DNA of 22,571 bases from Seison nebaliae. Taxonomy: Eukaryota > Rotifera > Pararotatoria > Seisonacea > Seisonidae. The stretch's first letter is position 1. Each line of letters starts with the position of its first letter. Both the position numbers and the translations under genes were made by a program. Of the stretch, positions 2,744 to 21,444 are shown in pieces. The DNA lies in the NCBI GenBank assembly GCA_023231475.1, contig JALJEE010001459.1:1-22571 (forward strand), given 5' to 3'. The notes beneath the pieces were generated by a model. It searched no databases. It worked only from the letters and a program-made list of their open reading frames with translations, and was not told the DNA's origin.

Positions 2744-3017
2744 TGTCGATCTCGAATTCATATTCGCGCTCTCATTAGATTTGTAACATTAGAAAAATAA
2801 TTAAATATAATCGAAAGACATTGGTAGTTAGCTATATGATGCTCTTTCCATTTCTAACAGAAAATCTAATTTCAGATAGATGTTAATGAATTGAAATAAT
2901 TATGAACTACATTTAATTCTCTTAAATAAATTGGTAGCTTCTTCGTAAAATATTAAAGAATCATCGATTATCAACAAATTTTCGATTCAATGTGATTCGA
3001 CAAATTCTTTCTCCTTG

Positions 3018-4684
3018 ATGGATGAATTCGGAAAGATTTTAAATAAAGTGATTGAGCAAATTAAAAATGATCGTTTATCAGAGTCCATTCCGTTTGAAAA
3101 TGTGGGACAATTGAGTTTTGTCGAATGGTTGCAGAATAAGTGCGACTTTATTTCAGTGAATTCTTCTGACAAAATTTATATTGTAAAGCAAAGCAATGAA
3201 TTGAACGATCCGAATATTTTGATCAGTACCAAAAGTAAGAACGGAAACTTATTTTCCAAGCCGATCGTAACGGATGTAGGAGTTCTACCATTTGGATTGA
3301 AAGTGCCAAATTCATCATTACAGATTAAAGATATCGAGGAATTAATAGGAGAAAATTTCGAAGTGGAAGTAATAAATGTCAGGAAACAATTAACATCGAC
3401 CATGTTGTTTAAAGAGTTTGTGGATTATTGGAACAATAAGAAAAATGATTTCCATGACAATCTTTTAAATTTCGATAATGATGACGACGATTGTCGATTG
3501 AATATTTTATCGTTGGAATGTAGTAAAACGGCAATGAATCAAGAAATTAACTTACCAACTTTCGTTGAACGAATTAGTTGGCTGAGAAATGGAATTGTTG
3601 GTAAGACGATTCAAGACGAATTCCCATCGATCTTATCAGCCAACGTTGACAAATACTGCCTTATATCAACACAACATTCATACACTGATTTCCATATCGA
3701 TTTTGGAGGATCGTCAGTTTGGTATCATTTGTTGAAAGGTAATAAATGTTTCTACATTTATCCACCCACCAAATTCTTCATACATTCCTATAAAATGTGG
3801 ACGAAGTATTGTGCAAATAATTTATTCGATTTGCAATTGCATAACATTAATTATGATCTGGATGATTCAGAGGAGAAACTACTCAAAAAATTCCTTTGTT
3901 GGTTTCCAAATTTTCTCAAGGTCGCTTATCAATTTTGGCCGAACAAGAATAATTCTGATGAATTTTGGCTGAGAGGAAGATATATCGAACTAAAAGAATC
4001 GTCAACTTTATTTTTACCAAGTGGATGGATTCATTCCGTCCATACCACTCAACATTCAATTGTATTTGGTGGAAATTTTCTCACCAGTTATCACATAAAT
4101 CATCAAATGAAGTTTTATTTTTAAGATTTTTTTCTTTCATTTTCTGTACTTTTCAGCATTTACAAAATGGAAAGACAAATATCAACACCAGGAAAATATA
4201 TTTTCCCTTTCTTTGAAGAATGTCATTGGTTGACAGCGATCTACTTGTCGGATGATCTAAAAAAACGTCTTCGACTTCTCACACCAAATTCAGATATATT
4301 GCACAAGGTTACATAGTTTATTTGTGTGACAATTATTGGAAAAGTTCATCGATCCAGTTCCTCAAGAAGAAAGACAGTCATCAAATGGAATTAGTAATTC
4401 GTCCAATTATTTATGAAATGAATAATGTCATTCCAAGAAAGGAATTACTCGTTCAATATAATTCGTTGGTTATCGGACTGAAACAGTGGAGTAAAATGTT
4501 CACATTGGGAAGAACGGATAAAAAGAGTAAAAGTGTCTGTGATGGAAATATTCCTCCATTAAAATTATTTATTGGTCAATCACCATCGTCAACCATCGAA
4601 CGATTAGAACGACTGATGAAGAAGATATCCGTTATACAAATGCATATGATTAATTCAGAAAAGAAACTCGTCTCTTGTCTCTGA
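3018..4684 (+). CDS. KDM7-like: KDM7/PHF8-like JmjC histone lysine demethylase without a PHD finger
   Basis: Predicted Fe(II)/2-oxoglutarate histone lysine demethylase, nuclear by family. Exons are 3018-4111, 4157-4307 and 4358-4684 (introns 45 and 50 nt), giving 523 aa with agreeing phases. ATG 3018 is the first in-frame ATG after a TTG. The JmjC core is intact: SYTDFHIDFGGSSVWYHLLK holds the HxD iron ligands H226 and D228, K243 fits the 2-oxoglutarate lysine, and GWIHSV supplies the distal H339. The linker before the core (about 85-190) aligns in my memory with human KDM7A/PHF8. After the first intron IYKMERQ and FPFFEECHW continue the family helical domain. Two oddities: no Cys-rich PHD finger is encoded upstream, and about 45 extra residues sit between the PPT strand and the distal His (about 262-320). 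It ends 50 bp from a convergent gene. I am sure of the family, less sure of the N-terminus. Confidence 0.85.
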
Positions 4685-7264: not shown

Positions 7265-8734
<1,470 letters not shown>

Positions 8735-11037: not shown

Positions 11038-13329
11038 ATGGGAAATGACTTCAATCGACATATTCGATCTCGTGCAGGTATTTTTAGTCGTACTTTCCTA
11101 TAAATTTTCTTCTCCGATTTATTCGATTAACTCCATAATTTTTTCCTGCTAAAAATCACTTCGAAACTTATTATTAGATCACTGGAAATAATTTACTCTC
11201 TTTAATAATGGGAATGATGATTAACAAATAAAAAATTTCATCTAGTTTCGATAAAAGTAAATGATAAATGGAAAAATTCATGTTTCGAGGAATGAGGAAA
11301 ATAGTAAAAATGAATATGTAAATTTTTTTGAAATTAATTTCCTGATATAATTTCATTTTGGTTTGTATCATTTTGACGATTTCCTTTCGGAATGAGAAAT
11401 TATATGAAAAAATGAAAATGAGTAAATGAAAAGAAGGGTTTAAGGGAGGAAGAAAACGGAATGTTTTTTTTTCATAACAAATTAATTGCTTCAACATTTT
11501 ATTTCTCTTCGAAAACAATAACATTAATTTCTAACATTAATTCCATCAATTTATTTTTTTTCTGTTTATCAACCAATTACATTGCTATTATATATTAATT
11601 CAACTCTCTTGCAATATTACTATGTTGTTTTTTCGAATTCCTTCAAATATATAACTGTCAACTGCAGGTACAGAAACAGGTGCAACAATTTTGAATGATA
11701 AAGAAGATAAGCGTCATAGAATGAAAAATTTGGAGAGGATAAGGAAGACGTTTTCGATGCGTCGGAAACAGAAGTTTTTAAGTCCGATCCTGGATGATGT
11801 TAATCTAACATCTCCAAATGTTGAACACACATTGTCGAATGGTGAGAATGAACAAATTGGCACTGACCCAGTAATGGCAGTCACTCCATCTGAAGAAACA
11901 TTTATTCCAAATACTCAAAAAAAATCGAAAAAATTTACAGAGAAAACGAATAATTTCCATAAGAAATTTCTCAGTGGTTCGTTTCTATTGTAATAATAAT
12001 AATTGTGATATAATTTGAATGAATTCTCATCATTTTCCTTTTGTAGCGTTAAAGAAAACGAATGAAGAGAATAAGGTGCCCGATAAACCTCATTCCTGGC
12101 AAATAGATGAAGAGAATGTTCGGAAAGGTCAATGTGAGTTCCAAGTGAAATATATGGGATTTGTGGAAGTGTTTGAATCGAGAGGACTCAATGTCTGTGA
12201 ACAATCGATTGCTGGTTTGAGAAAGAAGGAGAAGAATCATGTAAAAGCTGTTCTGATAGTGAGTGGTGATACTTTACGTGTAGTGGATGATCAGAAGAAA
12301 TGTCTCTTAGTCGATCAGACGATTGAGAAAGTTTCTTTTTGTGCTCCAGATCGATATCATTCGAAAGGATTTGCATATATCTGTCGAGATGGAACTACCA
12401 GACGATGGTTATGTCACGCTTTCCTCGCCAATAAAGAAAGTGGTGAAAGATTGTCTCATGCAGTTGGATGTGCATTTGCTATTTGTCTAGAAAGGAAACA
12501 GAAACGAGATAAAAAATCTTGTCAAGATGTTCATGTTACTTATTCGGCGAATGGTTGTCAATTTGAACGAACTGGTTCATTTCGTTCAATTTCATTGAAA
12601 GATAGACGTCTTGATCCACAATTGGCTATTCTACCACAAGTAACGGAAACAGCTGCTGCTACACCAACTGCCGCTCAGAAACGTCAATCATATGCCGCTT
12701 CCGAATTCGATTGTGTTCAATCGACTCAAGATTTTGAATTAGTCGATGATCATAATAAACCATTCGGAGATTTTACTCGTTCTTATACAATGACTGATAT
12801 GAATCGTACGAGACCAAGATCTAGTTTAAGTTTACATAAACCGATGACTCAATTCACTTCAATGATTCCTCCTATTCCACCACCGTCAGATACTCACATG
12901 TTCACTGATCTACCTTATCAATCATCTCTCGAAAATAATAATCAACAGTCATTCAATAACAGTAATAATAATCATCAAAATAACAGTAAAAACATTAACT
13001 TCCAGATAAATAATATTCAAAATATTAAGAAGCCTTCACAACAAGAACATCGTAATTCACTGAATCCTGAAGTTCTTAATACATTATTCACTCAATCTAT
13101 TCCCAATAATTGTACCAGTCGATCTCATCATCATCAAAGAGGTTTTCATTTCAAATTTTCTCTAAATATTCTCTATTTCTACTCATTTAATTTCATATTC
13201 CCAGCTGTATCTGAAGTGTTAAGTAATTCATCAAAACCTTTAAACCAACAATTCAACTGTCAAATGACATATCAACCTTTTAAAGCAAGTAATCCATTTG
13301 CGGCCGACGTTCTTAATGGTTATTCATGA
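11038..13329 (+). CDS. numb: Numb, PTB-domain cell-fate and endocytic adaptor
   Basis: Asymmetrically inherited Notch antagonist and clathrin adaptor acting at the cell cortex. Exons are 11038-11077, 11668-11976, 12047-13141 and 13205-13329 (introns 590, 70 and 63 nt), giving 522 aa. The tiny first exon starts MGN, as in fly Numb, and a Gly2 N-myristoylation site is plausible. A basic stretch [15 protein letters not shown] (exon 2) parallels the membrane-binding basic region of fly Numb. The PTB domain spans about 144-270 ([66 protein letters not shown]). [11 protein letters not shown] (about 289-299) matches the conserved aPKC phosphorylation site. An Asn-rich spacer follows, and the C-terminal SNPFAAD (NPF 511-513) is an EH-domain ligand. 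The last intron is stop-free and a multiple of 3. The exon 2 donor could also be 3 nt earlier. AATAAA lies at 13641. Confidence 0.94.
11078..11667 (+). other. Long first intron of Numb
   Basis: GT at 11078 and a CTGCAG acceptor at 11662-11667. At 590 nt it is nearly seven times longer than any other intron placed here, which suggests regulatory content. It holds poly-T and AT-rich sequence only. A 116-codon minus-strand ORF (11174-11524) is Phe/Ile/Lys-rich noise. The acceptor is followed by GTACAGAAACAG, so a second AG 12 nt downstream could be used instead. Confidence 0.7.
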
Positions 13330-20112: not shown

Positions 20113-21444
20113 ATGACCGAAACAAATAAATTACCTGATGTTGGAGCTGAATTAAGCGAACGAGTTGTCATCAATGTTAGTGGCATGCGCTTCGAAACTC
20201 AATTGAAGACTTTAAATACATTCTCTGACACATTACTCGGCGATCCCAAACGACGTATTCGATATTATGATCCAATGAGGAATGAATACTTCTTCGATCG
20301 TAATCGACCAAGTTTCGATGCAATCCTTTATTACTATCAATCGAATGGTCGTTTACGTCGACCAGCTACTGTAGCTATCGATGAATTTACAGAAGAGATT
20401 CGATTTTTTGAATTGGGCGAGAAAGCCTTCGATCGATTTCGAGAAGATGAAGGTTTCGTTAAAGAACCGGATAGACTGTTGCCACAGAATGAAATGCAAA
20501 GAAAAATTTGGTTATTAGTCGAATTTCCTGAAACATCCAATGGCGCACGTGTAGTAGCCATCGTATCAATTTTTGTAATTATTTTATCTACCGTCATATT
20601 TTGTTTGGAATCTTTACCATCGTTTAAACGATATCAAGTAGAAATGAATCCGTATAATAATCGATCAATTATTAAGGAAGATGATCTGGGACAAATAGAT
20701 GAACCATTCTTTTATATAGAAACTCTGTGCATAATTTGGTTCAGTCTCGAATTTCTTGTGCGATTCTGGGCATCACCAAATCGTTTAGAATTTATTAAAT
20801 CAATAATGAACATTATCGATCTGGTCGCAATCCTTCCATATTTTTTTGCGTTACAGAACTTATTAGTACCTGATCATCATAAAAATAATCAAGCCACCTC
20901 ATTAGCCATATTCCGTTGCATCCGATTAATTCGAGTATTTCGAATATTCAAATTGAGTAGACATTCGAAAGGTTTACAAATTGTCGGTCAAACATTGAGA
21001 GCCAGTCTACAGGAATTGGCATTATTAATGGTCTTCTTACTATTGTTCGTCATATTTTTCTCATCAGCAATCTATTTCGCGGAAGTTGGTGTTCCCGATA
21101 CGCAATTTACATCTATTCCCGAAGCATTCTGGTGGGCTATGATTACAATGACAACTGTTGGTTTAGGTGATATGAAACCGGTTGGATTATTTGGCAAACT
21201 AGTTGGATCTGCGTGTGCCATCACCGGATTATTGATGATCGCCTTACCCGTACCTGTAATTGTGTCAAATTTTAATTACTTTTATCATCGTGAAACGAAT
21301 GACGCGCAAGATGAGAAGAAATTAGATAGCGCCTCCGAAAAAAAGAGAGATTCTTTGATTTCATTAAATGACAATAACGGTTATAATATCGTAACATTAG
21401 GTAACGACGACAATTCATTAATTTTTCAGCCAATAAAACAATAA
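20113..21444 (+). CDS. Sh/KCNA-like: Shaker-type (Kv1) voltage-gated potassium channel with non-canonical TVGLGD filter
   Basis: Single-exon 443-aa channel subunit. ATG 20113 follows an in-frame TGA. The T1 tetramerisation domain (about 17-105) has [19 protein letters not shown] and [16 protein letters not shown]1 is about 146-166, S2 200-221, S3 230-250. S4 is 265-283 ([17 protein letters not shown]) with R268, R271, R274, R277, K280 and R283 at every third position. S5 is 302-322. The pore ([14 protein letters not shown]) leads to LGDMKPVG, then S6 with the PVP gate hinge ([11 protein letters not shown]). Two positions depart from Kv1: the filter Tyr is Leu351 (TTA at 21163-21165), and the residue matching Shaker T449, the external TEA site, is Lys355. 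The N-terminus is too short for an inactivation ball and the C-terminus (FQPIKQ) lacks the usual TDV PDZ ligand. N183-R-S in the S1-S2 loop is a glycosylation sequon. AATAAA signals at 21432 and 21440 overlap the stop codon. Confidence 0.95.

Follow-up and report, generated by a model that had tools for sequence, protein, structure and literature searches.

Leucine replaces the selectivity-filter tyrosine in a Shaker-type (Kv1) potassium channel gene of Seison nebaliae

Examination of a 22,571-nucleotide stretch of the Seison nebaliae genome (hereafter the window) identified a Shaker-family (Kv1) potassium channel alpha-subunit gene, named C606, in which the Tyr of the selectivity filter is replaced by Leu (GLG in place of GYG). 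The GLG Kv1 of Seison is a genuine variant within a known channel family. The open reading frame of C606 comprises 443 codons plus a stop codon, with no internal stops and no introns. A search of solved structures (PDB) with the C606 protein returned Drosophila Shaker as the best match (7sip, E 2.4e-171, 573 bits), with 560 bits for Kv1.2 and 550 bits for Kv1.3, compared with 259 bits for Kv4.2, 257 bits for Kv3.1, 252 bits for Kv2.1 and approximately 70 bits for Kv7. By sequence, C606 is a Shaker/Kv1 channel by descent, as the initial annotation of this DNA had proposed, and is nearer to Kv1 than to Kv2, Kv3, Kv4 or Kv7. C606 does not have the architecture of a two-pore-domain (K2P) channel, as its 443 amino acids combine a T1 domain with a single Ion_trans domain and a single matched pore stretch. 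The canonical Kv1 filter signature TVGYGD, taken here as a definition of the filter and not of descent, is interrupted in C606 by Leu at the fifth filter position. The T1 domain, voltage sensor, pore helix, filter glycines and gate are kept in the sequence, and within the filter only the Tyr is replaced. Residues retained (Shaker numbering) include the S4 charges R362, R365, R368, R371, K374 and R377, together with W434, W435, T439, T441, T442, V443, G444, G446, D447 and the PVP motif; the frame and the S4 charges are intact, in agreement with the earlier reading.

To read the filter directly, the codons at 21151-21177 (from residue 347) were translated. These are ACA ACT GTT GGT TTA GGT GAT ATG AAA, which confirms the letters and coordinates first given for the motif (TVGLGD, within residues 347-358, with the Leu codon TTA at 21163-21165). 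TTA differs at two bases from either Tyr codon (TAT, TAC), and thus a single base miscall does not explain Leu351. Adenosine-to-inosine editing of TTA yields only TTG, which still encodes Leu. A second GLG gene in the genome, C423b, encodes its Leu by TTG (C423:6572-6589), a codon different from the TTA of C606. C423b has also been deposited as SNEBB_001137 (P0094); this deposit lies on the same contig and therefore does not provide an independent read of the gene.

The occurrence of the filter Tyr was examined in homologues collected from two database searches, comprising the best 120 of 5263 and the best 120 of 4849 matching proteins. The resulting 145 proteins, including that of C606 itself, contained 162 filter copies; one protein (P0031) misses the motif and has Tyr in the alignment. 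These counts are not independent, because isoforms and closely related proteins are among those collected and some gene models contribute two filter copies each. Tyr was present in 160 of the 162 copies, with C606 and C423b accounting for the two Leu residues, and the filter Tyr column in the alignment of non-Seison homologues was Tyr in 142 of 142 rows. Leu at this position thus exceeds chance expectation. No Kv1 channel with a GLG filter was found in animals other than Seison among the matches listed (the best 120 of each search), where many rows are nameless and the named rows include neither monogononts nor acanthocephalans; in this set, then, TVGLGD was not common in described Kv1 channels of the group. 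A pore-region search with only four candidates gave P0121 and P0122 besides the C606 protein, both GYG; this search was weak and missed even P0094. No description of a Kv1 channel with a GLG filter, or of the string TVGLGD, was found in the open-licence literature searched.

We also examined the residue at the tetraethylammonium (TEA) site, which is Lys in C606. Among the 162 filter copies this residue was Arg in 109, Thr in 37 and Lys in one (C606). The signature TTVGYGDMTPVG (norm TMTPVG), which the initial annotation regarded as established for Kv1, is therefore not the commonest form in these relatives. Lys at the TEA site was considered as a second anomaly and rejected, as Arg is the commonest residue there, though Lys itself occurs only in C606. 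Since Arg prevails at this site, Lys355 represents a mild change of one basic residue for another.

To place C606 among its paralogues, the genome of this seisonid rotifer (36.0 Mb, 846 contigs) was searched with the C606 protein. Published S. nebaliae drafts, with GC contents of 31.9% and 34.0%, cover two cryptic lineages (PMC8351084). This analysis revealed four full-length Kv1 genes, C606, C110, C423a and C423b; the strongest next matches had 45% identity over partial length. Two of the four carry GLG, and the original picture of one odd Kv1 gene had to be abandoned. The GLG pair consists of C606 and C423b (TTVGLGDLSP), and the GYG pair of C110 (TTVGYGDMHP) and C423a (TTVGYGDMTP). C606 is 62-72% identical to the other three genes, and within its T1 domain the best-matching 40 residues (46-85) share 97% identity with C423a and 90% with C110. 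C423a (C423:2100-3311) and C423b (C423:5570-6796) adjoin on one contig, and their products match the S. nebaliae proteins SNEBB_001136 and SNEBB_001137 residue for residue. Across the genome, T(V/I/M)GLGD was identified in C606, C423b and a K2P-like gene at C578, and the remaining 8 of 11 matches to the degenerate pattern have Phe.

Comparison of the four Kv1 genes revealed purifying selection. Pairwise nonsynonymous divergence (dN), with both GLG copies included, was 0.22-0.33, synonymous divergence (dS) had reached saturation (1.8-3.5 in five pairs, with no defined value for the sixth), and identity by codon position was 0.67-0.74, 0.78-0.86 and 0.41-0.49, respectively. Decay of the GLG copies is thus unlikely, a judgment already made for C606 from its own sequence. 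The six S4 charges, both Trp residues, T439, both filter Thr and Gly residues, D447 and PVP are kept in C606 and in C423b alike. Over 209 columns without variation in 27 homologues, and with gaps counted, the GLG copies showed 28 and 33 departures, C423a 23 and C110 9; the GLG copies have drifted further than C110.

In Shaker, a published chain couples the voltage sensor to the filter, V363/L366/V369 - L409 - S411 - S412 - F433 - W434 - Y445, in which Ala at 409, 411 or 412 slows C-type inactivation (PMC7943188). Changes along the chain are V363C and L409F in C606, V363C and S412A in C423b, V363C in C423a and none in C110. Both L409 and S412 are kept in the GYG copies C110 and C423a; the S412 column is Ser in 142 of 142 other homologues, the L409 column is Leu in 136 of 142 non-Seison homologues and the nearby G406 column is Gly in 139 of 142. 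The S4 change from V363 to Cys was observed in three of the four Seison copies (C606, at 20917-20919, C423a and C423b), with Val in all 142 others. Two chain changes in each GLG copy are not significant, because by our estimate about one position in eight is expected to change by chance at 28 and 33 departures in 209 columns. L409F and S412A as putative compensation for a Leu filter are offered as a lead, not as evidence.

The filter Tyr has been studied by mutagenesis. In Shaker, the hydroxyl of Tyr445 forms a hydrogen bond with Thr439 of the neighboring subunit, Y445F causes markedly faster inactivation, and Y445A leaves nothing but gating current, a defect that T449V does not rescue; in linked tetramers, one Y445A subunit is enough for very rapid, near-complete inactivation (PMC3852034). 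No current was obtained from Kv1.2 Y377F, Kv2.1 Y376F or Kv2.2 Y384F (PMC8001480), and Shaker T449K displays fast P/C-type inactivation (PMC4977472). Leu is able to form neither of the two Tyr bonds, to T439 or to the second Trp.

Our preferred explanation, put forward tentatively, is that C606, a genuine Kv1 subunit, forms joint tetramers with the GYG paralogues and renders them either fast C-type inactivating or silent. The close similarity of its T1 domain to theirs would allow C606 to join these paralogues. As the inter-subunit Tyr bond is missing, mixed tetramers would be K+-selective but would undergo fast C-type inactivation, and tetramers in which Leu subunits predominate would be silent. 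C606 would then act as an intrinsic subunit that sets inactivation, and Lys at 449 might act in the same direction. Faster C-type inactivation of C606, as predicted by analogy, fits the published behavior of the Shaker T449K and Y445 mutants.

Several points weigh against this explanation. In mammalian channels, changes equivalent to T439 in Kv2.1, Kv2.2 and Kv1.2 leave slow inactivation unaltered, changes at site 449 in Kv1.4 and Kv1.5 are without the Shaker effect, and the authors attribute the loss of current to a bond between the second Trp (W435) and the Tyr (PMC8001480); given these different results, the Shaker bond network may not apply in Seison. The mutants described in the available text of PMC3852034 and PMC8001480 replace the Tyr by Phe, Ala or Val (the last only in combination with T449V), and none by Leu. 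Since Leu is a working part of K2P filters and, according to one review, of those of functional viral Kcv channels, a well-conducting Leu filter is possible. The S412A change of C423b could offset the effect of Leu, as Shaker S412A slows C-type inactivation (PMC7943188). C606 itself carries L409F at a position where Shaker L409A slows inactivation, but Phe is larger, not smaller.

A less probable explanation is that C606 forms a homotetrameric, well-conducting Kv1 channel with a four-Leu filter that operates as Leu does in the filter strands of K2P, TOK and certain viral channels, and with altered conductance or selectivity. GLG is known from K2P filters, as the initial annotation stated (PMC8616229), Leu is present in functional viral Kcv channels according to one review (PMC12332018), and XXGLGD is counted among K+-selective filters (PMC3283738). 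By alignment, the solved TOK channel 9pik carries TIGLGD in its first pore. The aromatic group is reportedly not essential for selectivity, a result credited to Heginbotham in 1994. Set against these points, Phe, Ala and Val mutants of the Tyr lost conduction or had it strongly shortened (PMC3852034, PMC8001480), and the seven viral channels of an earlier paper have filters of the form TxxTxGF/YG, with Phe or Tyr and without Leu (PMC3369850). The Kv context WW...TTVGLGD, scanned in a prokaryote genome collection with Leu as CTN only, gave no matches; the corresponding scan with GYG, run as a control, gave at least 116 stretches.

A bolder and rather unlikely reading is that the Kv1 channels of Seison assemble only as GYG:GLG heterotetramers, probably with two subunits of each kind, whose mixed filter would copy the two-plus-two arrangement that TOK and K2P channels build from tandem pore loops. 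If true, such heterotetramers would have reached an asymmetric K+ filter, with gating of its own, a second time and independently, by combining separate subunits.

Also unlikely is that C606 is an electrically silent subunit, which would reach the membrane and move charge but never conduct, and would act as a dominant-negative regulator or as a voltage sensor for another function. Shaker Y445A (PMC3852034) and Kv1.2 Y377F (PMC8001480) are non-conducting, and both GLG copies have been retained for long, as their saturated dS indicates; however, Leu has a larger side chain than Ala and is tolerated in the filters of other channels, and the conduction-related residues checked besides the Tyr are kept, with no obvious need for them in a permanently silent subunit. 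An artefact (of sequencing, assembly or strain) or a functionless drifting relic is very improbable: the sampled population comprised two lineages (PMC8351084), and departures from the Kv1 consensus are more numerous in the GLG copies than in C110, but these points are outweighed by the two-base difference from Tyr, the other Leu codon of the second paralogue, the intact frame, the purifying selection and the Merqury value of 46.8 for the published assembly GA2 (PMC8351084), which is not established as the present assembly.

To examine the history of the GLG copies, trees were built with the filter column dropped from 27 of the 142 non-Seison homologues, picked for taxon spread, and the four Seison rows; as the trees held Kv1 rows only, placement was tested within Kv1. 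The four Seison genes formed one group (support 100/99) adjoining bdelloid Kv1, and C606, C423a and C423b grouped apart from C110 (99/95). The best tree joined C606 to C423a (97/60). Forcing the GLG copies together as sisters cost 1.6-2.1 log units and was not rejected by the approximately unbiased test (p-AU = 0.169; 0.21 with spiralian rows only, 0.192 without two long rows and 0.174 under LG+G4). With C423a left out, the GLG copies came together against C110 (97/92), and with C423b left out, C606 joined C423a (100/98); both results are compatible with either history. A four-sequence codon tree, saturated and with the filter codon included, split GLG from GYG. Tyr may thus have changed to Leu in one event, in two, or in one followed by a reversal. 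Gene conversion between the GLG copies was not supported: in the 40-residue stretch 316-355 the C423b protein is closest to C606 by a small excess (0.75 vs 0.72 and 0.70), and in the DNA of the same stretch it is not closest (0.71 vs 0.72 and 0.72).

Additional features of the Seison Kv genes were observed in the course of these comparisons. The most conserved Seison Kv1, C110 (G000:C110, L063:3340-5580), differs from the other three genes in its 747-residue frame, of which the N-terminal region is long and rich in Gln and His and the C-terminal tail is rich in Thr. All four genes have Met at the S6 position equivalent to Shaker T469 (21235-21237 in the window), which is Thr in 141 of 142 other homologues and which we take to be part of the inner quaternary-ammonium site. 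A divergent second tandem pair of Kv genes with Kv-type T1 stretches was identified at G000:C181 (L064:1421-3145 and L064:3917-5641). One of its filters is GFG (ATTVGFGDFVP) and its neighbor is GYG (ATTVGYGDFVP); here, too, one member of a tandem pair lacks the filter Tyr. Frames neighboring C606 in the window resemble a JmjC/cupin protein (2949-4124), a proteasomal ATPase (7445-8490) and a PTB/PID-domain protein (12019-13329).

Table 1. Position of C606 and its features in the window
Feature	Position	Strand	Basis or remark
Kv1 (Shaker-family) alpha-subunit gene C606	20113..21444	+	443 aa, stop codon included, intronless
T1 (BTB_2) tetramerization domain, residues 18-107	20164..20433	+	Pfam PF02214, 90.8 bits (cut-off 21.4)
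S1-S6 Ion_trans domain, residues 146-394	20548..21294	+	Pfam PF00520, 170 bits
S4, residues 268-283, six Shaker gating charges checked, all present	20914..20961	+	Column comparison with 142 homologues
S5 F312 and F315 (Shaker G406, L409)	21046..21057	+	G to F and L to F in C606 only, among the four Seison copies
W340 and W341 (Shaker W434, W435), aromatic cuff, kept	21130..21135	+	Alignment with homologues
T345 (Shaker T439), kept	21145..21147	+	Hydrogen-bond partner, in Shaker, of the missing Tyr (PMC3852034)
Selectivity filter TTVGLGD, residues 347-353	21151..21171	+	Direct reading
Leu351 codon TTA, replacing Shaker Tyr445	21163..21165	+	Tyr in 142/142 non-Seison homologues collected
Lys355 (Shaker T449, TEA site)	21175..21177	+	Direct reading and alignment
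PVP hinge of S6, residues 379-381, kept	21247..21255	+	Alignment

C606 resembles Shaker, Kv1.2 and Kv1.3 in its T1 domain, six-helix domain, S4 charges, WW pore helix, TMTTVG-GD frame and PVP gate, and differs from Shaker and Kv1 channels in its filter Leu, in having only 17 residues ahead of the Pfam T1 match and, as read by eye, in having no obvious inactivation ball. With K2P and TOK channels, and with Seison's own K2P-like gene at C578 (TIGLGDLVP), it shares the TxGLGD filter strand. Unlike C606, K2P and TOK chains carry two pore loops, one GLG and one GYG in TOK 9pik; K2P channels usually pair GLG with one GYG loop, and neither K2P nor TOK channels are known to have a T1 domain. Among non-Seison channels, the Kv1 proteins of bdelloid rotifers lie nearest in the tree (64-68% identity among the rows listed) and, in contrast to C606, have the filter Tyr in all nine rows included. 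The residue altered in C606 is the same as in the Shaker Y445 and Kv1.2 Y377 mutants, but the latter are laboratory changes to Phe, Ala or Val, and the change in C606 is natural, to Leu and selectively kept. The filter Tyr is invariant in the non-Seison Kv1 channels compared, and in Shaker it anchors the hydrogen-bond network that times C-type inactivation (PMC3852034). A Kv1 channel without this Tyr, kept twice beside two Tyr copies in one genome, is thus a natural counterpart of the classic mutagenesis, and bears on whether a Leu filter conducts, on the inactivation that it may impose on its partners and on the residues that may compensate for it.
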